The translations under genes and the position numbers were made by a program. Shown here piece after piece: positions 837 through 14,810 of a DNA stretch of 64,000 nucleotides; positions within the stretch are counted from its first letter, which is position 1, and each line of letters begins with the position of its first letter. Below the pieces are notes generated by a model. It was not told the DNA's origin and searched no databases. It was given only the letters and a program-made list of their open reading frames with translations. Origin of the DNA: Flavobacterium aquidurense (GTDB lineage: Bacteria; Bacteroidota; Bacteroidia; Flavobacteriales; Flavobacteriaceae); assembly GCF_001404985.1 (NCBI RefSeq), contig NZ_JRLF01000014.1:186001-250000 (forward strand). Direction: 5' to 3'.

Positions 837-1247
837 TTAAAATGCAATATCAGCCAAGGAATTACTCTCTAATATTTTAAGCGTATTATCACGAACTTCC
901 ATCATCAAACGTCTTGCTGCACAAGTAGTTTCATCGTCACAATCATCGCATCTTTCATAAAAATTATGACTCGCACATGGAAGTAACGCAATTGGACCTT
1001 CAAGAATTCGGTATACTTTTGCCATACTAATATCCTTTGGGTCTTTTATGAGATAGTAACCTCCGCCTTTTCCTTTTTTTGCCCCCAGAAAACCGGAGTT
1101 TCTAAGTAACAACAATATACTTTCTAAGAATTTTATCGAAATATGTTCACTTTTTGCAATTTCGGCAATTTGTACTGGTTCATTATTTTCACGTCTAGCC
1201 AAGTAAGTTAAAGCCTTAATTCCGTATTTTGTTTTCTTTGAAAGCAC
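837..1247 (-). CDS. Rrf2-family transcriptional regulator
   Basis: DNA-binding regulator of the Rrf2 family (IscR/CymR/NsrR relatives), 136 aa, the usual length. Residues 1-65 form the winged helix: MLSKKTKYGIKAL start, recognition segment ISIKFLESILLLLRNSG, and the glycine-rich wing KGKGGGYYL. The central region has four cysteines at 91, 100, 103 and 109, so an Fe-S cluster or metal site is plausible. The spacing (x8, x2, x5) is not the IscR x5/x5 pattern. Flanked by a sulfur permease and metZ, it is a candidate cysteine or sulfur-status sensor. The target genes are not shown by the sequence. Confidence 0.88.
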   Translation of the reverse strand: MLSKKTKYGIKALTYLARRENNEPVQIAEIAKSEHISIKFLESILLLLRNSGFLGAKKGKGGGYYLIKDPKDISMAKVYRILEGPIALLPCASHNFYERCDDCDDETTCAARRLMMEVRDNTLKILESNSLADIAF

Positions 1248-1396
1248 TTTTTAAATATTTTAGACTTTAGAGCGTAGATTTTAGATTTCTGATCTAAATA
1301 AACATTCTAAATATTTTTCTGCAACAAAAATAAGCTTTTTGAACGAGAATAATAACAGATTAGAAAAGTAAGTTCTACTAAATTAGTATAGTTTAA

Positions 1397-3553: not shown

Positions 3554-5968
3554 CTACCCTTTATCAGATAATCTCAAAATATCTCCAAAAACTCCTCTCG
3601 CTGTTACTGCAGAACCTGCACCGGCTCCCTGAATTACGATTGGTCGGTCTCCATAAGATTCTGTATAAATTTCGAAGAAAGAATCAGATCCTTTTAATCC
3701 GCCTAAAGCAGTATCAGAAGGTACTGAAACTAGTTTTACTTCCAGAATTCCTTTGTCATTTTGCAAATCTCCGGACAATTCACCAATGTATCTTAATACA
3801 TGATTTGGTTTTTGATCTGCTTTTATTTTATCGTAAATTGGGTCAAATTCTTTTAGTTTAGTTAAGAAATCTGATACATTTCCTTCACGCAAATGTTCCG
3901 GAATTAGATTCTGAATTGAGATTTCTTCAAACTCATTTTGTAAATCTAATTCTCTTGCCAAAATCAATAATTTTCTACCAACATCATTTCCACATAAATC
4001 TTCACGCGGGTCCGGTTCTGTATAGCCGTTATCGATTGCTTCTTGCAATATCTGGCTAAACGGAGCATCTTTTGCTGAGAAATTATTGAATAAATAACTC
4101 AATGTTCCGGAGAAAACCCCTTTTATTTTTGTGATATTTTCACCCGAAAGGTGCAATAATTTTATGGTATCAATTAATGGTAAACCTGCACCAACATTGG
4201 TTTCGTACAAATAATTCTTTTGGTTTTCGGCTAAAGCTTTCCTTAATTCTTTATAAAAGCCATAACTTAAAGTATTGGCAACTTTATTCGAAGAAATCAA
4301 GTCGAAACTGCTTTCTGCAAGCGTAATGTAGTTTTCTACAAATGTGGCACTTGCGGTATTATCTATTGCAATTAAATTTTCTAAATGATATTGATTTGCA
4401 TAAGCAATTACATCATTTATAGTATAATCAAGTCCTTCTTTCTGAATATCATTTTTCCATCCGGAAGTTACGCCGTTTTTGTTTAAAAGTAATTTCTTAG
4501 AATTTGCAATTGCAAATACATTCAGTTTAATGTCTTTACGTTTTTCGATTGCAGCAGCAGATTCTAAAATCTGATTGATTAAAGTTCCGCCTACTAATCC
4601 GTGACCAAAAATAGCAATATTGATCTTTTTAGAAACTCCAAAAATCTCTCCGTGAATTACGTTTAATGCTTTATTTAGTTCTGCTTTTTTAACTACCAAA
4701 CTCACGTTCTTGCCAGTAACCGTGTTGTTAAATAATATTGGAACTATTTTATTTTTTATTAAAGCCGTATATGGTTTATGAAAAGTGCTTAAATCCTGAC
4801 CAATAATCGAAATTACCGAAACATTATCTGTAACCGTAATTTGGTTTACATCTTTAGAATAAAAGTCATTTTCAAACTCTTTTTCAAGTTCTACCATCGC
4901 AAGAGTCGCTTTATCTGTTGCAACAACAAGACCAATTCCTCTTTCTGAAGAACCTTGTGAAATAATACTTACGCTGATATTATGATCGCCCATAACCTTA
5001 AAAATTCGGGCATCAACTCCGGCTTTTCCAAGTAATCCACGGCCTTCAAGATTCACCAGCGACACGTTTTCTAAAACCGAAAGAGTTTTGATTCCTTCTT
5101 TAGTCGAATCTGAAGTGATTAAAGTTCCGCGATTTTCATGATTGAATGTATTTAAAATACGTAGCGGAATATTTTTTTCTAATAAAGGAATGATGGTTTT
5201 TGCATGTAAAATCGTTGCTCCAAAATTCGCTAATTCATTTGCTTCATTAAACGATAAAAACTCTATTTTTTTTGCATCAGCAACAAGATCCGGGTTTGCT
5301 GTATAAATTCCGTCAACATGAGTGAAGTTTTGTAATTCTTCGGCATTTAGATAATTAGCAATTAATGATGCGGTATAATTACTTCCGTTTCTTCCTAAAG
5401 TCGTGGTGTCGTTATTGTTGTTTGATCCAATAAAACCGGTTACAATATTTACGGTTGAACCGTTATGTTCTTTAAAATAATTGATGACATTTTTCTTGGA
5501 AAGTTGTTCCAAAGGTTGTGCATCACCAAATTTAGAATCGGTTTTTAGCAATTCTCTCGAATCAACAAAATTAGCCGGAACTCCTTTTTCTTTTAAAATA
5601 GCAGTTAATAATTTAGCTGAAAGCAATTCGCCTTTCGACAAAATCTGATCTTTTATTTTGTTACTATAATCTCCAATTAAGCTAACGCCTTCAAAAAGTT
5701 TTTCTAAAACATTAAATTCTTCAGACAGATCTACTTTTGGATAATCTGATATTTGATAGGCTTTAAAATTCTCAAATAATGGTTTATAATTGCCATTTTT
5801 AGCGGCAAGTTTCAAAATATATTCTAATTCATCTGTTGCATTTCCGCGTGCTGAAACTACAACTGCAATTTGTTCTCCTTGATTTACTTTATCAGAAATG
5901 ATTGAAACTACTTTGTTAAGTCCTTCTCCGTTTGATAACGATTTGCCTCCAAATTTTAATATTTTCAT
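3554..5968 (-). CDS. thrA: Bifunctional aspartate kinase / homoserine dehydrogenase I
   Basis: Catalyses the first and third steps of the aspartate pathway: phosphorylation of aspartate and NAD(P)H reduction of aspartate semialdehyde to homoserine. The product is 804 aa, normal for the fused enzyme. Aspartokinase occupies roughly residues 1-290 (MKILKFGGKSL; TTTLGRNGSNYTASL), paired ACT domains about 300-450 (LLGKAGVDARIF, ISQGSSERGIGLVV), and homoserine dehydrogenase from about 455 (NIAIFGHGLVGGTL). The dehydrogenase catalytic motif GYTEPDPREDLCG is intact. It starts 1 base after the metX-like gene, so the two are co-transcribed and sit behind both the leader attenuator and the SAM-I riboswitch. 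Regulation by threonine through the ACT domains is expected from the family. Confidence 0.96.
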   Translation of the reverse strand: MKILKFGGKSLSNGEGLNKVVSIISDKVNQGEQIAVVVSARGNATDELEYILKLAAKNGNYKPLFENFKAYQISDYPKVDLSEEFNVLEKLFEGVSLIGDYSNKIKDQILSKGELLSAKLLTAILKEKGVPANFVDSRELLKTDSKFGDAQPLEQLSKKNVINYFKEHNGSTVNIVTGFIGSNNNNDTTTLGRNGSNYTASLIANYLNAEELQNFTHVDGIYTANPDLVADAKKIEFLSFNEANELANFGATILHAKTIIPLLEKNIPLRILNTFNHENRGTLITSDSTKEGIKTLSVLENVSLVNLEGRGLLGKAGVDARIFKVMGDHNISVSIISQGSSERGIGLVVATDKATLAMVELEKEFENDFYSKDVNQITVTDNVSVISIIGQDLSTFHKPYTALIKNKIVPILFNNTVTGKNVSLVVKKAELNKALNVIHGEIFGVSKKINIAIFGHGLVGGTLINQILESAAAIEKRKDIKLNVFAIANSKKLLLNKNGVTSGWKNDIQKEGLDYTINDVIAYANQYHLENLIAIDNTASATFVENYITLAESSFDLISSNKVANTLSYGFYKELRKALAENQKNYLYETNVGAGLPLIDTIKLLHLSGENITKIKGVFSGTLSYLFNNFSAKDAPFSQILQEAIDNGYTEPDPREDLCGNDVGRKLLILARELDLQNEFEEISIQNLIPEHLREGNVSDFLTKLKEFDPIYDKIKADQKPNHVLRYIGELSGDLQNDKGILEVKLVSVPSDTALGGLKGSDSFFEIYTESYGDRPIVIQGAGAGSAVTARGVFGDILRLSDKG

Positions 5969-5969
5969 T

Positions 5970-6959
5970 TTATTTTTCTATTGTTTCTGCCTTAAAAATA
6001 TCGGCAAGTAAATGATCTAGTTGTTTGTACTCGATTAAAAAAGCGTCATGTCCGTGAACCGAATCTATTTCGCTGTAAAAAACATTCTTTTTGAACTTCT
6101 TTAATTCCTGAAATGTTTCACGATTTTCTTTTGGTGTAAAAAACAAATCTGAGTTGATTCCGATAATATGGATCGCAGTATTTGTTCTGGACAATAAAGT
6201 TTCAAAATCGTCACTATTTCTGGTAATATCTATGGTTTTAAGCAATTGGTTCATCAGTTTATACGATGCCAATTGATATCTTTTTTGTAATTTTTCGCCG
6301 TGATGTGCCAACCAGCTTTCGATATTAAAAATCGAAAGGTTGTCGTTGATCGTACGTTGAAATTTTTCTTTGAATGATTCAGGAGAGCGATAACACAACA
6401 TGGCATGAATTCTGGCATCTTCGATAGGTCTTGAAGAATTGTTCAGGATTTGCTCTTGTAAATAACAATTAGCAATCATCCAGTCTGTCGATTTCCAGTC
6501 TGTTGCAATCGGAATTAAGTTTTGGGTAATATTAGGTTCTAATGCAAGAATTTCCCAGGCAATTCCTCCACCAACAGAACCGCCAATAATGGTGTGCAAT
6601 TGGTTGATATGTAAAGCTTGAATTCCTTTTATAAAAATTCTGGCAATATCTCTGGTTGTAAAATCCTGATAGTTTTCTATTACGAAAGAATCGTTTCCGT
6701 TGCCGGGAACATCAAATGCCAAAATGGTATATTTGTTAGTATCTATTGTTTTTTCGTTCCCAATTAAATCATTCCACCAACCATTTTCGCCTGTAACCTG
6801 AGCATTTCCAGTCAATGCATGATTCACCAAAACAATAGGCGCGCTATGTAATGGTAAGCCAGAAAGTGTAAAACTTAGCGGTATTAACGGATATGATGCA
6901 CCACTTTGTGTGATGAAATCGTGAATTATAATGGGACTTGGTATATTTTCCAATTTCAA
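5970..6959 (-). CDS. metX: Homoserine O-acetyltransferase-like alpha/beta hydrolase (MetX family)
   Basis: Alpha/beta-hydrolase acyltransferase that should activate homoserine with an acyl group for sulfhydrylation, 329 aa. MetX features are the oxyanion stretch VNHALTGNAQVTGENGWW, the nucleophile elbow GGSVGGG with Ser128, the acid in NSDLFFTP, and the histidine in VHGHDAFL. The start is a TTG at 6957-6959: an in-frame stop lies three codons upstream and no ATG occurs before the conserved core. The gene lies 74 bases after a SAM-I riboswitch, and its stop is 1 base from the thrA start. Whether the acyl group is acetyl or succinyl is not decided by the sequence; both MetY- and MetZ-type partners are encoded nearby. 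Confidence 0.88.
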   Translation of the reverse strand: MKLENIPSPIIIHDFITQSGASYPLIPLSFTLSGLPLHSAPIVLVNHALTGNAQVTGENGWWNDLIGNEKTIDTNKYTILAFDVPGNGNDSFVIENYQDFTTRDIARIFIKGIQALHINQLHTIIGGSVGGGIAWEILALEPNITQNLIPIATDWKSTDWMIANCYLQEQILNNSSRPIEDARIHAMLCYRSPESFKEKFQRTINDNLSIFNIESWLAHHGEKLQKRYQLASYKLMNQLLKTIDITRNSDDFETLLSRTNTAIHIIGINSDLFFTPKENRETFQELKKFKKNVFYSEIDSVHGHDAFLIEYKQLDHLLADIFKAETIEK

Positions 6960-7032
6960 ATCTTTTTATTATTGATTTGTATGTGGAAATATTAGAAAGA
7001 AAGTACTAGAGTGAAACTAGAAAATTCTTGTT

Positions 7033-7137
7033 GTTATCTTTCCACGTTTGGGCGTGGTAGAATGCAGCACCTTCTTCGATTTAACGAAGGGTTGCTAAGG
7101 ATTCATCGGGTCTAATCCCTCGTCCTTTCTTTATAAC
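7033..7137 (-). ncRNA. SAM-I riboswitch (S-box leader)
   Basis: On the minus strand the RNA runs from GTTAT (7137) to ATAAC (7033), which pair as P1. It carries the conserved S-box core: AAGGACGAGGGA, then GACCCGATGAATCCTT, AGCAACC, a P3-type hairpin with CTTCG and CGAAG arms, AAGGTGCT, and a P4 hairpin CCACGCCC/ACGTGG followed by GAAAGAT. This matches the SAM-I consensus block by block. Just downstream, CTTTCTTT (plus-strand 6996-7003) is complementary to AAAGAAAG in the 5' part of the aptamer (7125-7132), so it could serve as the expression-platform switch. It directly precedes metX-thrA, which fits SAM feedback on methionine synthesis. Confidence 0.95.
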
Positions 7138-7327
7138 ATTTCAATACGTTTTTGAACTTAAAGGTGCAAATTAACTACTAATTTCTTAAACAAACAAATT
7201 TTATCGAAACTGATTCCGCAATTTCTTAAATATAATTCAAACAAAAATTATTGTACGCAAAAAATTACCGAACAAATTGCCCAGTAAAATTAAGCAGGTA
7301 TTCCCCTATTTTATGATACTTTTTGAT

Positions 7328-7531
7328 TTAGATAAAAAGTGTTTCATTTTCTTTTGAATACATCAAAAACAATAATGAGTTTGGCTCTTTTTTCTCCGCT
7401 ATTTTATCTGCCTCAGTAATTCCAAATCTTGGATGTACCAATTCATTTGCTGGCGGTGGCGGATTGTTTCTTCTAGCTTTCAAATTTTTTAATGTAGAAA
7501 AAGTTTTTGTTATGTAGTTTAATTTGCTCAT
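7328..7531 (-). CDS. Small protein between leader attenuator and SAM-I riboswitch
   Basis: A 67-aa ORF with ATG at 7531, about 80 bases after the attenuator terminator and about 190 bases before the SAM-I riboswitch. I do not recognise a family. The N-terminus is basic (KTFSTLKNLKARRNN) and is followed by a PPPP stretch and HPRFGITEADKIAEKK. The C-terminus NSLLFLMYSKENETLFI resembles the end of the other small ORF at 10868-11053 (KSLLFHLYDLEEEAEEFFV). The same position behind a Met/Cys leader in both cases argues that it is translated. No signal peptide or membrane segment is visible. Confidence 0.6.
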   Translation of the reverse strand: MSKLNYITKTFSTLKNLKARRNNPPPPANELVHPRFGITEADKIAEKKEPNSLLFLMYSKENETLFI

Positions 7532-7610: not shown

Positions 7611-7647
7611 AAAAAAACCCTTTTGGGTTTTAATACCAAAAGGGTTT
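7611..7647 (-). terminator. Attenuator terminator of the metX operon leader
   Basis: The minus-strand RNA forms an 11-bp stem, AACCCTTTTGG with CCAAAAGGGTT (7616-7626 and 7636-7646), followed by seven U. The 5' arm segment CTTTTGGT can instead pair with ACTAAAAG located right after the leader stop codon (plus 7671-7678), giving an antiterminator of 8 pairs with one G-U. Confidence 0.85.
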
Positions 7648-7679
7648 AAGTTTTATACAACTTATATATACTTTTAGTA

Positions 7680-7790
7680 TCAACAGACGCGTACACAAAT
7701 ACGTGCGACGTTAAACATCTTGTTCATCTGTAGGGATTTATTCATCTGTGATTTACTTGCTATTTTAAAAAATTCTTGCATTTGTTTCAT
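7680..7790 (-). CDS. Met/Cys leader peptide of the metX-thrA operon
   Basis: A 36-codon ORF (ATG 7790, TGA 7680) preceded by TTATTAAA. It has Met at 1, 4, 16, 22 and 25 and Cys at 32 and 36, and ends ARICVRVC before the stop. It lies 33 bases before a strong intrinsic terminator, with an alternative pairing at its stop codon. The layout is that of a transcription attenuator in which slow translation of Met or Cys codons would favour readthrough into the 67-aa ORF, the SAM-I riboswitch and metX-thrA. A shorter version starting at Met22 is also possible. Peptide synthesis itself is inferred. Confidence 0.7.
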   Translation of the reverse strand: MKQMQEFFKIASKSQMNKSLQMNKMFNVARICVRVC

Positions 7791-8143: not shown

Positions 8144-9232
8144 TTACAGCCAAACTGCTTCTTTATTTTTTATTTTTTCAGCGACTTTCAAAATGTCAGT
8201 TATTATCCCTCTTGAAATAGCTTGTTTACATGCCGAAGCACTTTGAATTGCAATTGGAACATCTGCATATGATTGTGTATAAATCTCAAAAATGGTATCT
8301 GAACCTTTTAATTGTCCAATAGCAGATGAAACAGGTTCTGAAATTAATTTAACTTCTAACGTATTTTTCTGCACATCAAATTCACCTACATATCTTAATA
8401 CATGATTCTCTGCCTGGGTTATTTTTGCAATTTTAAACGATTTGTCGATTGCGTCTTTATTAAGGATTCCGTTTTTCTCCAGATGTTCTTCTGTAATAAG
8501 AGAATTGATTTTTATATCTGAAAGTTCAAAATCCTTACCAATTTCCCTTGTCAAGATCAGCAATTTTCTCGCTGTATCATTTCCGGAAAGGTCTTCCTTA
8601 AAAGTAGAACGCATCAGGCCCAGTAAACTTGCATCTTTTAAAAGGGATGAAAACGAAGCTTCTTCAGTTGCAAATCTATTAAAGACGTAACTCAGATTGT
8701 CAGAGAAAACACCTCTTATTTTCGTAATTTTTTCTCCGGAGTAATACAAATCCCTCAGAGTTTGCAATACCGGAAAACCTGTATCTACTGATGTTTCATA
8801 CAAAAACTCTTTATCGTATTTTTTAAGATTTGTCCTGATCTCTTTATAGAGATCAATGGGCAATGTATTGGCTTTTTTATTTACCGCTACAATATTAAAT
8901 CCGTTTTCGATCAAAGTATTATAATGGTGAATTAGCTCATCACTTGCTGTCGCATCAACCGCAATTAGGTTCTCAAATTCATTTTGCTTTGCAAATTCAA
9001 TAATATCCTGTACTTTAAAAGGAACTGCCAATTCTAAGAAATTAGTTTCCCAAGCATATCCTACGCCTTCTTTCTCGAAAAAAGCAACTGTTGAATTTGT
9101 TATAATCGGAAAATGAAAGTCAACATTTTTACTTTCGAGAAAAAACTCCTGACTTTCGATAATTTGATTAATCAAAGTACTTCCGATATTTCCAATTCCA
9201 AAAAGGATGATATTTATTTTAAGCTTTGACAT
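8144..9232 (-). CDS. Homoserine dehydrogenase-like protein with altered active site
   Basis: A 362-aa homologue of the homoserine dehydrogenase half of ThrA, without the kinase. The NAD(P) loop FGIGNIGST and the VNKKANTLP lysine region are kept. The C-terminal segment LKGSDTIFEIYTQSYADVPI aligns with ThrA LKGSDSFFEIYTESYGDRPI. However, the catalytic stretch that reads TEPDPREDLCG in ThrA reads MRSTFKEDLSG here, losing the family glutamate, and ThrA NVGAGLP is replaced by SVDTGFP. It lies between metY and the metX operon leader. It may be a low-activity or repurposed paralogue, for example regulatory, but this is inference. ThrA at 3554-5968 would supply normal activity. Confidence 0.85.
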   Translation of the reverse strand: MSKLKINIILFGIGNIGSTLINQIIESQEFFLESKNVDFHFPIITNSTVAFFEKEGVGYAWETNFLELAVPFKVQDIIEFAKQNEFENLIAVDATASDELIHHYNTLIENGFNIVAVNKKANTLPIDLYKEIRTNLKKYDKEFLYETSVDTGFPVLQTLRDLYYSGEKITKIRGVFSDNLSYVFNRFATEEASFSSLLKDASLLGLMRSTFKEDLSGNDTARKLLILTREIGKDFELSDIKINSLITEEHLEKNGILNKDAIDKSFKIAKITQAENHVLRYVGEFDVQKNTLEVKLISEPVSSAIGQLKGSDTIFEIYTQSYADVPIAIQSASACKQAISRGIITDILKVAEKIKNKEAVWL

Positions 9233-9496: not shown

Positions 9497-10801
9497 CTAA
9501 TTTTTATTAATGCTGTATTGCGATTGGGTAACGCTGGCGAAAGCAGCTTGCAAATCAGCAATTAAATCTTCGATATCTTCAAGTCCTACAGAAAGTCGGA
9601 CTAAATCTTTTGAAACTCCCGTTTCTAACTGATCTTCATCAGATAATTGTTGGTGCGTTGTACTTGCCGGATGTATAATTAGTGATTTTGTATCACCAAT
9701 ATTGGCCAGAAGCGAGAACAATTTTGTTTGGTCAACTACTTTTTTAGCCGCATCAAAACCACCTTTTAGTCCAAAGGTGATAACACCACTTTGTCCTTTT
9801 GGTAAATATTGTTGTGCGAGATCATAATATTTATTGTTTTTTAAACCTGGATAGTTTACCCAAACTACCTCATCTTGTTTTTCCAACCAAGAAGCTAATG
9901 CTAATGCATTCTCGCTGTGTTTCTGAATTCGGATTGGTAATGTTTCTAATCCCTGAATAATCTGAAAAGCATTAAACGGACTTAAAGCTGCACCAAAATC
10001 ACGTAAGCCTTCGATTCTTGCTTTTGCTATGAAAGCTGCATTTCCTAAGGCTTCGTGGTACACTAGTCCGTGATATCCTGCAGAAGGTTCCGTAAATTCA
10101 GGAAATTTTCCGTTTGACCAGTCAAAATTTCCTGCATCTATAATAACACCTCCTAATGAAGTTCCGTTGCCTGAAATATATTTGGTTAAAGAGTGAATCA
10201 CAATATCTGCTCCGTATGCAATTGGATTCAATAAATAAGGAGTAGCTACAGTGTTGTCTACAATAAAAGGTACTTTAAAGTTTTTGGCTTCTGCCGAAAT
10301 TCCTTTCAGGTCTAATACATCTAATTTTGGGTTTCCTAAAGATTCTACAAAAAAGGCTCTTGTATTTTCTTTGGCTGCTTTAGTGAAATTTTCCGGTTTA
10401 GACGGATCTACAAATGTTGTCGTAATACCCAAACGAGGTAAAGTAACGCTTAACAAATTATATGTTCCTCCGTATAAACTGTTCGAAGCCACAATATGAT
10501 CGCCCGCTTTTAGCAAAGTCAGGAAAGTTGTAGAAATTGCAGATGCTCCTGATGCTGTAACTACAGCTCCAATTCCACCTTCGAGCGCCGCCAGTCGTTG
10601 TTCTAAAACATCATTTGTTGGATTATTTAATCGGGTATAAATAAATCCGGCTTCGGCAAGACCAAATAAATTGGCAGCGTGATCTGAATCGTTAAATACA
10701 TATGATGATGTCTGGTAAATTGGTACAGCTCTGGTTCCTGCGTTTTTAGTAACATCATGTCCTGCGTGTAATGCGTTTGTTGCAAATTTTTGTGTGCTCA
10801 T
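9497..10801 (-). CDS. metY: O-acetylhomoserine sulfhydrylase (MetY)
   Basis: PLP-dependent enzyme that condenses O-acetylhomoserine with sulfide to homocysteine, 434 aa, typical of MetY, which is longer than the MetB/MetZ relatives. Motifs are YTRLNNPTNDVLEQR, the phosphate-binding TASGASAI, the cofactor aspartate in IVDNTVATPYL, the Schiff-base lysine K207 in HSLTKYISGNG, and the substrate loop ANIGDTKSLIIHPASTTH. The insertion around FPEFTEPSAGYHGLVYHE is characteristic of OAH sulfhydrylases. It is transcribed from a Met/Cys-rich leader with an attenuator and follows a 61-aa small ORF, so expression is likely tied to methionine or cysteine supply. Confidence 0.95.
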   Translation of the reverse strand: MSTQKFATNALHAGHDVTKNAGTRAVPIYQTSSYVFNDSDHAANLFGLAEAGFIYTRLNNPTNDVLEQRLAALEGGIGAVVTASGASAISTTFLTLLKAGDHIVASNSLYGGTYNLLSVTLPRLGITTTFVDPSKPENFTKAAKENTRAFFVESLGNPKLDVLDLKGISAEAKNFKVPFIVDNTVATPYLLNPIAYGADIVIHSLTKYISGNGTSLGGVIIDAGNFDWSNGKFPEFTEPSAGYHGLVYHEALGNAAFIAKARIEGLRDFGAALSPFNAFQIIQGLETLPIRIQKHSENALALASWLEKQDEVVWVNYPGLKNNKYYDLAQQYLPKGQSGVITFGLKGGFDAAKKVVDQTKLFSLLANIGDTKSLIIHPASTTHQQLSDEDQLETGVSKDLVRLSVGLEDIEDLIADLQAAFASVTQSQYSINKN

Positions 10802-10867: not shown

Positions 10868-11053
10868 TTAAACAAAAAATTCTTCTGCTTCTTCTTCAAG
10901 ATCATACAGATGAAACAGTAATGATTTTTGACTTTTTATTTTTTGCTCTGTATTTATTCTTATAACTTCTGTAGTTATCTCTTCTGATTTATTGTTTTTT
11001 TGAGAATCGTTTCTCAATAAATATTCTATTGCAATTGAGTTTAGTGTTTTCAT
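10868..11053 (-). CDS. Small protein between attenuator and metY
   Basis: A 61-aa ORF with ATG at 11053, starting 22 bases after the attenuator terminator and ending 66 bases before metY. No family is recognised. It is highly charged, with a polar middle (RNDSQKNNKSEEITTEV). Its C-terminus KSLLFHLYDLEEEAEEFFV shares the pattern SLLFxxYxxExE...F with the end of the 67-aa ORF at 7328-7531. Both occupy the same position behind a Met/Cys leader attenuator, which argues for a related role in the sulfur regulon. No signal peptide. Confidence 0.62.
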   Translation of the reverse strand: MKTLNSIAIEYLLRNDSQKNNKSEEITTEVIRINTEQKIKSQKSLLFHLYDLEEEAEEFFV

Positions 11054-11074
11054 AATTTGAAATTTAAAAATGTT

Positions 11075-11113
11075 AAAAAAAAAAGCCCTTTCGGATGGCG
11101 ACCAAAAGGGCTT
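11075..11113 (-). terminator. Attenuator terminator of the metY leader
   Basis: The minus-strand RNA has the stem AAGCCCTTT with AAAGGGCTT (11083-11091 and 11105-11113), a 13-base loop and a run of U. The CTTTTGG segment at the 5' arm can instead pair perfectly over 7 bases with CCAAAAG at the end of the leader ORF (plus 11148-11154), giving a mutually exclusive antiterminator. Confidence 0.88.
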
Positions 11114-11144
11114 ATAGATCTAACTATAACAAAGATTTTATCTT

Positions 11145-11225
11145 TTACTTTTGGCAACAACGAATTGGGATGCACATTTGCATCATCTCACAACATATCA
11201 TCATATTTTTCGCTATTGTTTTCAT
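11145..11225 (-). CDS. Met/Cys-rich leader peptide of metY
   Basis: A 26-codon ORF (ATG 11225, TAA 11145). Met is at 1, 8, 9, 14, 15 and 17 and Cys at 11, 12, 18, 23 and 24, so 11 of 26 codons encode sulfur amino acids; the core reads MMICCEMMQMC and the tail RCCQK. It begins about 46 bases after a candidate TAnnTTTG-type promoter and ends 31 bases before an intrinsic terminator. Codons 24-26 overlap the antiterminator strand. This is the clearest leader peptide in the window and fits ribosome-mediated attenuation of metY by charged Met and Cys tRNA. It is too short and biased to be a normal protein. Confidence 0.82.
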   Translation of the reverse strand: MKTIAKNMMICCEMMQMCIPIRCCQK

Positions 11226-11277
11226 TTTTATTTTATTTGAATTATTCTTATTTTTAAACTCGACTAATTTGATAGAG

Positions 11278-11457: not shown

Positions 11458-14304
11458 TTAAAATTTGAAACTTAATCTGGCAAAACCAAATCTTCCGTTT
11501 AATCCAAATTGTGACACTGCTCTTGAATAAGCAAACTGATTTGCATTTGTTAAGTCGGCACTAGGCGCAGGAGACAATGTTGGTGTTGTATTAGTAAAGG
11601 CCGGAGTAGATGGATTATTTCTATCCGGATATACATCTCCTATATTATTAAAACCAACTGTGAATCTGAATTTCTCGTTGATTTGATATCCAAAAGATAA
11701 ATCAGTAACTATTTTTGAGCTGTATTCAGGATGTTCGTAAACTGAAGATGATCCGTCAAGATTTACATCTGTTGCTCCGGGATCTGTAACTTTTCCGAAA
11801 TAGCTGTTTCTTAAATAAATATCCAATTTTTTGATATTGAAAGTTGTCATTAAATTCGCTTTTAATTTAGGAATTGCTTCTTCTAAATAAATACGGCTTG
11901 ATTCCGGAAAAAATGAATATATATAAGGATCACCACCTGCATCAATAATAGATTGAGGAACATTTAATTTCCCCACTCTTTTTGTTGTATTGTAACTTAA
12001 AGCAAAATCATTTCGAATTGTAAAATCCTGAATTACATCATATTTTTGAGAAATTACGACATCAATACCTTTCGTTTCAGAGTTGATTCCGTTGGTCCAG
12101 AACGAAGCTCTTTCCACTCCTTTTAAATCAAATGCTTGCTGAAACAATGTCAATGCATCTCTTTGCTTGTCAGATGTTGCACCTGCTATCTGGGCATCAG
12201 TTGGTCTTGCATATTGTCCGGTTAATACCACTCTGTCATCGATTCTTGTAAAGTAAGCATCTGTTGCAATGGTAATATTTGCTTCTGGAATCTTGAATGT
12301 AAATCCTGTACTGATACTTTTAGATTTTTCAGGTTTCAGACTTTCAACTCCAATACTTTTTGCTGCTTGCGAATCGTTTGTAAAATAACCTACCTGATAC
12401 GGAGAACCATTTATAAATTGAGTAGAACTTGCTTCAAAATATTTTTGTTGTAATGATGGTGCTCTAAAACCGGTTTGACCTGAAATTCTCCAGTTAATAT
12501 TATCATTCAATTTTAAAAGAGATGCCAGTTTAAAAATAACTGTACTTCCAAAATCTGAATAATTCTCGTAACGGGCAGCTCCGTTTAAAAGCCAGTTTTT
12601 AGTGGCATTCAATTCTAAATCAACATAAGCCGCACCGCTTTTTCGGTCTTTTTCTTTAGCATCTGCTGGCTGAAATCCAGAAAATCCCTGCGCTCCTGCT
12701 CCACGTTTGTTGCCAAAAAAGTCAGTCACAATTAACGGTGAATTACTTGGCAGAATTCCTGAAACTAAATTTCCGTTTATATCATACAACCCGTAAGAAG
12801 CTTCTTCTCCAGATTTGATCTGATAATTTTCATATCTGAATTCTCCACCAAAAGCAAGGTTTAATCCTTCTAAAACATCCAGCTTTTTACTGAAATCTAA
12901 ATTGGTCGTACTTTGCAAAAACGAAACTTTACCGGCATCAAAACTGGTACCTGAATTGGTTCCTAAAGTTGCATTGATCGTGTTGTTTACATCATATTTA
13001 AAAGAGTTCGTTCCCAGGTTTGTACTAAGATCAGTATCAAAACCAAATAATTCTGTTGTAACTCCAACCGCAGATGAAGCATCTAAAATATCCGATTGTA
13101 TTTCCGGCAAAAATCCGTTTTCATACACTTGCGTGAAAGTTCCGGAACCATTTGGCAATCTGTTAAACGCATATGATTTACCATTTCTATACGAAACTCC
13201 ACCAAAAGAGTATAAAGCTGTGGTTTCTGTCAGGGGATATTTAGTATTATAGTACAATTGTCCCGAAGCTAATTCTGACTGACCAACACTCATATTATAA
13301 TCACTTCTTTCCTGCCCTCTGTAAGCAATTTCGTTATTGGTTACATCAAAATTTAAAGCCGTTTGCATTTGAGCCAATGTAGCTGCAGATGAGATTGCTG
13401 TTTGTTGTGCCGGTGTAAAATAACTTACTTGTGGCGCATATTGCTTTAATGAAGTAAGAATTTGTGCAGAATTGGGCGTGTTATTTATATTACTATATAA
13501 GGAGTTAATAGCAACTCCATTTTGAGCCGCTCTGTTTTCGACAGCATTATAGGCATTAAAAATAGCATTATTCCTAATTCCGGCTCTGCTCGTGGCTTGT
13601 CTTGTTACGGCACTTCCGGTAATATTAAGGAAACTTCCGGCTTTCCCTAAAGAGGTTCCGTAATTTAAATCTACTTGTAAATTTTGACCATCGGCACCAC
13701 CTTTAAAATTATTAGATCCTGATGATAAATTTGTACCATATTGAATTCCTCCTGAAATATAATTAGCATTCTTTTTTAATACAATATTGATCACTCCCGC
13801 AATTGCATCAGAACCATATTGAGCTGCAGCTCCATCACGCAAAACTTCAATTCTTTCGATAGCAAATGACGGGATTGCATTTAAATCTGTTCCTACAGAA
13901 CCTCTTCCGGGAGATCCGTTTATATTTACCAGAGCACTTGAATGTCTGCGTTTACCATTTACTAATATCAAAACCTGGTCCGGTCCCAAACCTCTTAATT
14001 GTGCCGGATCAACGTGATCTGTAGCATCTGCAGTAGATGTTGCATTACTTGTAAAAGAGGGTGCAACATAATTTAAAATCTGCGTAACGCTGGTTTGTGG
14101 CGATCCTTTTGTTATATCTGAGATATTAAAAACATCAACCGGAACGGGAACATCTGTTTTTACACGGTTTTTACTTCTGGATCCTACTATTGTTACTTCT
14201 GATAATTCATTGTTCTTTAAAGTATCCTGCTCTTTTTTATTATCCTGGGCATAGATTCCGGAAAATGTTAAAAGACCTAATGCTAATACTACATTTTTTT
14301 TCAT
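11458..14304 (-). CDS. TonB-dependent outer membrane receptor (attenuator-controlled)
   Basis: Outer membrane active transporter, 948 aa. A signal peptide (MKKNVVLALGLLTFSGIYAQ) is followed by a TonB-box-like region NELSEVTIVGSRSKN. The plug domain spans about residues 50-180, with VLILVNGKRRHSSALVN and IERIEVLRDGAAAQYGSDAIAGVINIV, and a long beta-barrel ends in aromatic RLSFKF. There is no SusD partner and no carboxypeptidase-like N-terminal domain. Upstream it has a short Met/Cys-containing ORF and an intrinsic terminator, and metK is divergent. I therefore infer uptake of a sulfur-containing nutrient, but no ligand can be read from the sequence. Confidence 0.92.
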   Translation of the reverse strand: MKKNVVLALGLLTFSGIYAQDNKKEQDTLKNNELSEVTIVGSRSKNRVKTDVPVPVDVFNISDITKGSPQTSVTQILNYVAPSFTSNATSTADATDHVDPAQLRGLGPDQVLILVNGKRRHSSALVNINGSPGRGSVGTDLNAIPSFAIERIEVLRDGAAAQYGSDAIAGVINIVLKKNANYISGGIQYGTNLSSGSNNFKGGADGQNLQVDLNYGTSLGKAGSFLNITGSAVTRQATSRAGIRNNAIFNAYNAVENRAAQNGVAINSLYSNINNTPNSAQILTSLKQYAPQVSYFTPAQQTAISSAATLAQMQTALNFDVTNNEIAYRGQERSDYNMSVGQSELASGQLYYNTKYPLTETTALYSFGGVSYRNGKSYAFNRLPNGSGTFTQVYENGFLPEIQSDILDASSAVGVTTELFGFDTDLSTNLGTNSFKYDVNNTINATLGTNSGTSFDAGKVSFLQSTTNLDFSKKLDVLEGLNLAFGGEFRYENYQIKSGEEASYGLYDINGNLVSGILPSNSPLIVTDFFGNKRGAGAQGFSGFQPADAKEKDRKSGAAYVDLELNATKNWLLNGAARYENYSDFGSTVIFKLASLLKLNDNINWRISGQTGFRAPSLQQKYFEASSTQFINGSPYQVGYFTNDSQAAKSIGVESLKPEKSKSISTGFTFKIPEANITIATDAYFTRIDDRVVLTGQYARPTDAQIAGATSDKQRDALTLFQQAFDLKGVERASFWTNGINSETKGIDVVISQKYDVIQDFTIRNDFALSYNTTKRVGKLNVPQSIIDAGGDPYIYSFFPESSRIYLEEAIPKLKANLMTTFNIKKLDIYLRNSYFGKVTDPGATDVNLDGSSSVYEHPEYSSKIVTDLSFGYQINEKFRFTVGFNNIGDVYPDRNNPSTPAFTNTTPTLSPAPSADLTNANQFAYSRAVSQFGLNGRFGFARLSFKF

Positions 14305-14370: not shown

Positions 14371-14400
14371 AAAAAAAAACCTCTGCAATTAGCAGAGGTT
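14371..14400 (-). terminator. Attenuator terminator before the TonB receptor
   Basis: A perfect 9-bp stem AACCTCTGC/GCAGAGGTT (14378-14386, 14392-14400), a 5-base loop and nine U on the minus strand. The 5' arm CTCTGC can alternatively pair with GCAGAG inside the leader ORF (plus 14436-14441), forming a 6-bp antiterminator. Confidence 0.88.
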
Positions 14401-14423: not shown

Positions 14424-14489
14424 CTACAATAGCGTCTCTGCGGAAGGCTCCGGCATCTTACAAGACATATTGCAAATTGTTGATTTCAT
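14424..14489 (-). CDS. Met/Cys leader peptide of the TonB receptor gene
   Basis: A 21-codon ORF (ATG 14489, TAG 14424) beginning MKSTICNMSCKM, with Met at 1, 8 and 12 and Cys at 6 and 10. Codons 16-19 overlap the antiterminator strand GCAGAG. The stop is 23 bases before the intrinsic terminator, and the receptor ATG lies 67 bases after that. The arrangement matches the leaders of metY and metX. The smaller number of sulfur codons makes it less certain than the metY leader. Confidence 0.65.
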   Translation of the reverse strand: MKSTICNMSCKMPEPSAETLL

Positions 14490-14662: not shown

Positions 14663-14673
14663 CACCCGAATAC

Positions 14674-14810
14674 AGAGGAAAAATTTGAACTGATTGCAAC
14701 CTCTTCATAATGAAACGGTTCGTTATGAATGCTGAAAGATTAATTTCAGTAGTAAAAAATGCTAAAGCAGGATACCTCCTTTAGCACTTTCAGCAATTAC
14801 TTTTCCTCGC
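14674..14810 (+). ncRNA. SAM-II-like riboswitch, long-loop form, upstream of metK
   Basis: The RNA has P1 AGAGG/CCTCT (14674-14678, 14700-14704) closing a loop with TTTGAACTGATTGCAA, and downstream AAAAAATGCTAAAGCAGG; these match the SAM-II core (GATTTAACCG-ATTGCAA and AAATG-GCTAAA). CTG in the loop can pair with CAG after GCTAAAG to form the pseudoknot. Between them are two hairpins, TTCATAA/TTATGAA and CTGAAA/TTTCAG, as in long-loop SAM-II variants. GCTAAAG (14761-14767) can instead pair with CTTTAGC (14779-14785), TGCTGAAAG (14730-14738) with CTTTCAGCA (14787-14795), and GAGGAAAA (14675-14682) with TTTTCCTC (14801-14808). That gives a competing fold before the metK start. Confidence 0.78.

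Follow-up and report, generated by a model that had tools for sequence, protein, structure and literature searches.

Leader-peptide attenuation is a textbook mode of control. In the trp, his, thr, ilv and leu attenuators, a short ORF is rich in control codons for the end product, competing 2:3 and 3:4 helices follow, and the stop codon is placed so that a ribosome finishing the leader covers region 2. Most of what is known about bacterial control of methionine synthesis concerns SAM riboswitches, T-boxes and repressors; the SAM-I riboswitch (RF00162) binds SAM itself. A methionine attenuator faces a particular problem: methionine shortage weakens initiation of the leader, and an untranslated leader of the trp type terminates.

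The nearest published methionine case that we found, in the account available, is the predicted metL leader before metNIQ of Streptomyces lividans, the encoded short peptide containing several Met and Cys residues (MSTTSDRTPATEATTTPGARCMCRRMCAF; PMC8079986). For cysteine, polycysteine short ORFs of mycobacteria have been described as sensors (Canestrari 2020, as cited in PMC9031893 and PMC9094748). In Rhodobacterales, cysS is preceded by the uORFC-8-2 motif, whose short leader ORF has Cys codons (PMC8632094). A transcriptome study of Flavobacterium psychrophilum reports strong signs of leader peptides in front of operons for amino-acid biosynthesis (PMC9723704). The conserved 5' elements named in the available part of that paper, which concerns the same genus, include those of pheA and hisG and not metY; an earlier sighting of the metY leader in its supplements is possible.

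We analysed a 64,000-nucleotide stretch of Flavobacterium aquidurense DNA (hereafter the window), in which an O-acetylhomoserine sulfhydrylase gene, metY, is preceded by a leader ORF of the attenuator type. The metY leader has in common with the textbook attenuators the control-codon ORF, the competing helices and the placement of the stop codon. Like metL of S. lividans, it is a Met/Cys short peptide before a methionine operon; unlike it, metL precedes a transporter operon and is described in PMC8079986 with a leaderless start and no typical terminator. The mycobacterial and Rhodobacterales cases resemble the metY leader in that the Cys codons of a short leader ORF serve, or here would serve, to sense cysteine, whereas, as far as those sources go, they have Cys codons only and belong to other phyla, and the mycobacterial ORFs are leaderless. 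The initial annotation of this DNA had named no attenuator described for methionine synthesis in Bacteroidota; our search of open-access papers, with subscription papers and supplements outside it, likewise found none on a Met/Cys leader-peptide attenuator of metY or in Bacteroidota. We propose, at a probability of about 0.87, that metY is controlled by a ribosome-mediated transcription attenuator that senses how far tRNA-Met and, in most members, also tRNA-Cys are charged. The parts of the locus are as follows.

9497–10801, minus strand: metY, O-acetylhomoserine sulfhydrylase (TIGR01326 over cut-off, PF01053)
10868–11053, minus strand: 61-aa ORF between terminator and metY, with the C-terminal stretch KSLLFHLYDLEEE
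11075–11113, minus strand: intrinsic terminator (3:4) with U-run
11101–11108, minus strand: region 3 (CTTTTGGT), common to antiterminator and terminator
11112–11129, minus strand: small conserved hairpin B (TTATAG/CTATAA)
11131–11145, minus strand: small conserved hairpin A (AAAGAT/ATCTTT), between regions 2 and 3
11148–11155, minus strand: region 2 (GCCAAAAG), the antiterminator arm, last bases before the leader stop codon
11155–11164, minus strand: 3' arm of the 1:2 hairpin (TTCGTTGTTG), from covariation
11172–11204, minus strand: core control codons 8–18, MMICCEMMQMC; 6–10 Met/Cys besides the start in 78 aligned heads, all in frame
11209–11218, minus strand: region 1 (CAATAGCGAA), 5' arm of the 1:2 hairpin enclosing the control codons, from folding and covariation
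11145–11225, minus strand: leader ORF MKTIAKNMMICCEMMQMCIPIRCCQK, stop included, 26 codons
11278–11309, minus strand: promoter-like stretch TTTGG...TATATTTA, a pattern found upstream in 60 of the 81 nearest loci (defined below)

Translation bore out the ORF of the initial annotation and its coordinates: 11 of its 26 codons specify Met or Cys (six Met, the start counted, and five Cys). Among the 25 non-start codons the count is 10, against a median Met+Cys content of 2.2% in the 29 window ORFs of at least 250 codons. On both strands of the 64 kb, the leader is the only ORF of up to 60 aa with at least 6 Met/Cys in any 12 residues, its value being 8; among 40 order-1 Markov copies of the window, five had an ORF with 6 in 12 and none reached 7. 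A chance ORF was rejected on this count and the Markov copies. The strong terminator described earlier was also confirmed, with a stem of 12 pairs (11113–11083), six of them G-C, and a T-run behind it. So was the exact complementarity of CCAAAAG (11154–11148) to CTTTTGG (11108–11102), which a wobble pair extends to 8 pairs. An 8-base match as good arose in 11 of 400 shuffles of the window's tail; taken alone it is only fairly unlikely by chance, and its weight comes from conservation. The region 11060–11240 folds with z = -4.5 relative to dinucleotide shuffles. The promoter-like stretch, whose boxes we take to be of the Bacteroidota type, ends about 52 nt upstream of the leader ATG; this predicted promoter would argue against a leaderless start. 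An Rfam search of the window gave no aptamer match to RF00162 or other SAM families at the metY leader, no family at gathering score (the best weaker match had E 0.14) and no T-box among matches up to E 10; SAM-I, SAM-II, a T-box or another Rfam element at this leader was rejected accordingly. The 61-aa ORF has no match in Pfam or NCBIfam, and an ORF of its type recurs between terminator and metY in most of the 81 loci.

The arrangement is conserved in relatives. The nearest loci comprised the window and the best 80 of 563 relatives (n = 81), a similarity-biased set in which 76 of the 80 are titled Flavobacterium. With a leader called at 5 or more Met/Cys in 12 residues, all 81 carry a Met/Cys-rich leader before metY, with a terminator 22–38 nt behind the leader stop; the commonest form, found with near variants in most of them, is MMCC-x-MM-x-MC...CCCQK. 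Some nearest loci have a second, upstream leader (type 2, ...NMCCMM...SAE...), the tail of which is complementary to the 5' arm of its own terminator. In an order-wide sample of 296 genomes, in which metY was accepted at E up to 1e-120, leader and terminator are kept in 19 of the 20 Flavobacterium genomes with metY; the exception (L142) has a weak leader only. A second, distant metY copy of one Flavobacterium genome (L174) is without such a leader and stands outside the 19/20. The conserved ORF, terminator and competing pairing in these relatives support the architecture of ribosome-mediated attenuation claimed in the initial annotation. Relatives keeping the terminator without the Met/Cys ORF, the case it had named against itself, were not found, both parts being kept in the 81 nearest loci and the 19 genomes. 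A leader-peptide search (E up to 10) matched 49 of 199 Flavobacterium genomes and, being insensitive for so short a query, gives no frequency. A covariance model built on the alignment described next (A1) matched 32 of 299 genomes; among 30 loci examined, 12 had metY downstream and the remaining ones were terminator-like or other places.

Alignment A1 contains 78 of the 84 distinct type-1 leaders, with the divergent L083, L085, L088, L139, L140 and L141 left out. In columns 1–72 all gap runs are 3 or 6 long and the frame is kept in 78/78, and after column 72 gap lengths of 1, 2, 4 and 5 appear as well. The core Cys codons change little: the first is TGT in 73, TGC in 4 and another codon in 1, the third TGC in 66, TGT in 11 and another codon in 1, so that changes at both are mostly synonymous, and the second shows a single change among the 78, to Phe. 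In the tail, a 1-base insertion in L055, L069 and L082 turns CCCQK into LLLPKVKE or LLLPKVEE, yet the RNA TTGCCAAAAG is kept. Column 85, in region 2, falls at codon position 2 in 75 type-1 leaders and at position 0 in 3. The type-2 set (n = 48) was drawn from 56 leaders by removing the mis-parsed L027 and L029, six type-1-like ones and L315 and adding the window; its region 2 starts at codon position 0 in 41 leaders and position 2 in 7, and CCGCAGAG is read as S-A-E or P-Q-R. The in-frame gaps of the head and the retention of the tail RNA across frames indicate that selection acts on codons in the head and on the RNA itself in the tail. The Cys codons of the tail thus need not be sensors. The initial annotation had listed the tail RCCQK along with the core MMICCEMMQMC. 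The tail codons RCC are probably not sensors, as region 2 would lie under a ribosome stalled at them, and the Cys codons are lost in L055, L069 and L082.

The helices were examined in the same sequences. In the 1:2 helix (columns 11–23 with 75–84), 95.2% of the cells pair across the 78 sequences and 40 cells show two-sided changes, against 8.6 in shuffles (0/500 as high); RNAalifold predicts this helix unprompted. The terminator and the two small hairpins together have 16 two-sided cells against 1.4 (0/500). In the type-1 antiterminator, 99.7% of region 2/region 3 cells pair and no two-sided change occurs among the 78 Flavobacterium sequences; with both sides invariant, that set alone is no proof of the pairing. 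The type-2 antiterminator has 284 of 288 cells paired, with 7 two-sided against 0.72 (0/500). In other genera, 2:3 helices of 7 to 12 bases and of different sequence recur at the equivalent place. For TGCTATTGCCAG/CTGGTAATAGCG, TGCTATTACC/GGTAATAGCA and GGTATTGCTA/TAGCAATACC, none of 400 tail shuffles was as good; further matching pairs are TGTTCTAAAAGG/CCTTTTGGAATA and GGTATTACC/GGTAATACC. Single 2:3 matches are not all significant, with shuffles as good in 10/400 for L329 and 98/400 for L314, and the shuffle tests cover leaders other than L163, L164, L166, L334 and the metX leader (see below). As judged from the type-2 covariation and the differing sequences in other genera, the antiterminator is mutually exclusive with the terminator. 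Met-rich leaders also precede metY in other families of the order (L162, L163, L164 and L166), three of the four without Cys. Among them the antiterminator is clear in L162 only, and L164 and L166, from two other families, have weak 2:3 matches.

The geometry of translation was modelled with the standard ribosome footprint, which extends 15 nt downstream of the first nucleotide in the P-site codon. When the ribosome stalls in the core, be it at the first, the middle or the last Met/Cys codon, region 2 is free and nascent 2:3 pairing forms in 78/78 leaders (mean 0.98). At the leader stop the ribosome covers region 2, and 2:3 pairing forms in 0/78. At full-RNA equilibrium the terminator is favoured in every state (0.84–0.87); antitermination must thus be kinetic, set by the order of synthesis. 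In ribosome-free nascent RNA, mean 2:3 pairing is 0.89, 0.87, 0.85 and 0.74 with 0, 20, 45 and 60 nt of 5' UTR, and exceeds 0.5 in 78, 76, 75 and 63 of the 78. A like computation on E. coli trpL, with 27 nt of 5' UTR and pairing of the terminator 5' arm with anything upstream as the yardstick, gave 0.05 without ribosome, 0.56 for the Trp stall and 0.00 at the stop, which is the known trp logic. The proposed metY attenuator would be a new form of ribosome-mediated attenuation: unlike E. coli trp, it would read Met and Cys, and its 1:2 hairpin does not lock up region 2, with predicted ribosome-free readthrough of 0.85–0.89 (up to 45 nt of 5' UTR) versus 0.05. A role of the 1:2 hairpin as a protector locking region 2 was considered and dropped, as the hairpin adjoins region 2 and ribosome-free RNA is predicted to read through, so that it is no trp-like protector; a pausing or timing role would be a guess.

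We infer that the leader is translated and that it responds to starvation in the following direction. When charged Met- and Cys-tRNA are plentiful, the ribosome would reach the leader stop and cover region 2 (GCCAAAAG); region 3 would then pair with region 4, and transcription would end before metY. Under a shortage of either charged tRNA, the ribosome would stall on codons 8–18 and leave region 2 free to pair with region 3 once that is made, the terminator would be pre-empted, and the small ORF and metY would be transcribed. Met appears to be the constant signal and Cys a sometimes absent one, since three of the 14 leader loci in the family set described below (L332, L334 and L341) have Met and no Cys in the leader. 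The open region 2 predicts that an untranslated metY leader reads through. We tentatively go further, at a little under even odds, and suggest that stalling and failed initiation both mean ON and only a ribosome at the stop means OFF, that leader and SAM-I were swapped at least twice at metY, and that the window's cluster uses both. An ON default would be sensible because Met shortage presumably also lowers initiation at the leader's own AUG. Such an inverted default, in which no translation means ON, is a possible answer to the difficulty of sensing the initiator amino acid by an attenuator.

The distribution of the leader in the family was compared with that of SAM-I riboswitches. A close metY was present in 200 of 299 family genomes (Flavobacteriaceae by genome names). 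The family set was made of 28 new loci among the best 30 matches and 60 picked by hand, about every second one among the matches listed; its 88 upstream regions gave 87 usable ones, with L265 out because its contig ends upstream of metY. SAM-I stands before metY in 68 of the 87 (47 by Rfam and 21 by a model built from such riboswitches, all on the metY strand), the Met/Cys leader in 14, neither in 5 and both together in none. The exclusion has a Fisher p of 2e-12, computed regardless of kinship, and it is clustered by kinship. Among the five with neither, L313 has a SAM-II riboswitch on the metY strand, metY of L325, L330 and L335 seems by eye to follow directly after metK, and nothing was visible upstream of metY in L316. 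SAM-II also lies divergent from metY in several relatives. In the order-wide sample, 20 matches from other genera of the family comprised 19 with SAM-I upstream on the same strand and one leader (L161). A tree of 53 metY proteins (without L264, L272, L275, L142 and L265) has three label switches, at least two of them forced by well supported branches; the leader-bearing L256 and the SAM-I-bearing L270 are sister rows. These patterns suggest that a charged-tRNA sensor and SAM-I have been exchanged at metY of Flavobacteriaceae and are functionally equivalent there. With a metabolite sensor and a ribosome-stall sensor exchanged at one gene, it can be asked what each is good for.

Other explanations of the metY leader were weighed against these data. 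In one of them the Met/Cys-rich nascent peptide would itself halt translation, for instance on capturing copper or a sulfur metabolite inside the exit tunnel, and this halt, not a shortage of charged tRNA, would flip the same RNA switch; Met/Cys-rich peptides do bind soft metals, and the RNA part of the switch would look identical. What is kept across genera, however, is the content and not the order or spacing of these residues (MMCCKMMQMC, MMMRDMMMSMMM, MMCCCMMCMCM, MSMMMW), and for metal or peptide sensing it is awkward that the controlled gene makes homocysteine for methionine and that the element alternates with SAM riboswitches. We consider peptide arrest improbable.

The conserved 1:2 helix, the two small conserved hairpins and the strong folding would also suit an unrecognised metabolite riboswitch or a protein-binding leader RNA in which the short ORF has no role. 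That explanation is at odds with gaps that preserve the frame in the head only, where the Met/Cys content is kept, with region 2 lying immediately ahead of the stop codon in most members and with the Rfam result given above, and it seems to us very improbable. The intrinsic terminator might also act constitutively, or mark where the upstream TonB gene ends, with the ORF there by chance and no regulation at all. The ORF is improbable by chance and conserved, a promoter-like motif precedes it in the 60 loci counted above and an equal layout recurs in other genera with different sequences, which makes this reading scarcely credible. Ribosome-mediated attenuation is the preferred reading.

The initial annotation had described one such leader; the window has three. 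Its methionine cluster contains three leader-type sites and two SAM riboswitches, the latter only before metX and metK.

3554–5968, minus strand: homoserine dehydrogenase fused to aspartokinase
5970–6959, minus strand: metX-like homoserine O-acetyltransferase (best NCBIfam TIGR01392, below its cut-off)
7031–7139, minus strand: SAM-I riboswitch before metX (RF00162, 76.4 bits)
7328–7531, minus strand: 67-aa ORF ending SLLFLMYSKENETLFI, an end like that of the 61-aa ORF
7611–7647, minus strand: terminator of the second attenuator
7671–7681, minus strand: region 2 of the second attenuator (GATACTAAAAG), pairing CTTTTGGTATT over 11 bases
7680–7790, minus strand: second leader MKQMQEFFKIASKSQMNKSLQMNKMFNVARICVRVC, on the metX side (found by the A1 covariance model, E 1.8e-6, site 7611–7745)
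8144–9232, minus strand: free second homoserine dehydrogenase
11458–14304, minus strand: TonB-dependent receptor, downstream of the type-2 attenuator (PF00593, PF07715)
14371–14400, minus strand: terminator of the type-2 attenuator, CTCTGC complementary to GCAGAG in the leader
14424–14489, minus strand: type-2 leader MKSTICNMSCKMPEPSAETLL before the TonB-dependent receptor
14669–14775, plus strand: SAM-II riboswitch before metK (Rfam)

The 36 codons of the second leader include two Cys and, not counting the start, four Met; this attenuator is present in 70 of the 81 nearest loci, and the 11-base 2:3 helix in 54 of those. The order on the metX side is leader attenuator, 67-aa ORF, SAM-I and metX, that is, an attenuator and a riboswitch in series. 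The 67-aa ORF has no Pfam match; it and the 61-aa ORF, each behind a terminator, have the C-terminal stretch SLLF-x-x-Y...E...F in common. The CTCTGC/GCAGAG match of the window's type-2 attenuator, taken alone, was equalled in 20 of 400 shuffles. In other species metY itself has the type-2 leader upstream, at a distance of up to about 1.1 kb. The proposed attenuation would give a control system for sulfur amino acids to a large environmental group on which our searches turned up little.

Several proteins of the cluster are poor in the sensed amino acids. Apart from its start, the window's MetY (434 residues) is free of Met and Cys. So are the MetY proteins extracted from 79/79 nearest loci (one of the 80 gave no protein), 24/24 other leader loci and 27/29 SAM-I loci; as each protein was cut at the last Met before the AGHD motif, the count would overlook a Met very close to the N terminus. 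Besides the start, Met/Cys number 3 of 948 residues in the TonB receptor, 3 of 804 in the aspartokinase-homoserine dehydrogenase and 2 of 362 in the second homoserine dehydrogenase, and these three are among the five lowest of the 29 long window ORFs; MetK, a methionine user, has 10 in 416. The low-Met/Cys genes look built for translation during Met/Cys shortage. This is in keeping with the proposed signal. As MetY is free of Met and Cys just as often in SAM-I loci (p = 0.20), it supports starvation use of the gene and not the leader, and would suit leader and riboswitch alike.

Two further elements of the window were noted.

11260–11275, minus strand: imperfect palindrome CTATCAAATTAGTCGA (CTAT-NRAATTRGTMGA), a possible operator just after the promoter-like stretch
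837–1247, minus strand: Rrf2-family regulator with clustered cysteines, near cys genes (TIGR00738 over cut-off; the best equivalog, CymR, far below its cut-off)

The palindrome follows a TTTG...TAnnTTTA promoter-like stretch in 57 of the 81 loci, and the Rrf2-family regulator is a candidate for binding it. In its own genome the palindrome has five sites at up to 2 mismatches (window 11260–11275, L120, L121, L122 and L123), against two for the reversed control; four of the five precede Met/Cys-rich short ORFs, that of metY included. At L120 an 8-codon ORF, MKKRMCCR (1255–1281, minus strand), and a hairpin lie before what we take to be a SusC-like receptor gene. At L121 there are tandem Met/Cys leaders, MKNYSPNIIPFMCSFTMCCMKSDAMKWR and MRSNRNTNIMMQCCLMKIPCCNCFNY (1379–1465 and 1210–1290, minus strand), with a terminator-like hairpin behind the first; they precede a gene that by eye is glutamate dehydrogenase-like, not a sulfur gene. 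Another short ORF (MHANMLMFCCCCC...) precedes a gene that to us resembles a PhyH-type dioxygenase. Met/Cys leaders before all sulfur genes were considered and rejected, as the cysE, cysK and other PALP-family loci examined, cysE and cysK of the same genome among them, had no short ORF with at least 4 Met/Cys in 12 residues; the cys cluster in L214 has a single short ORF with 4 in 12. 'MCC' codon strings were likewise rejected as genome-wide marks of leaders, with ATGTGYTGYMKR at 22 sites in the own genome versus 13 for the reversed control; two of these sites (L180 and L194) are short leaders before genes.
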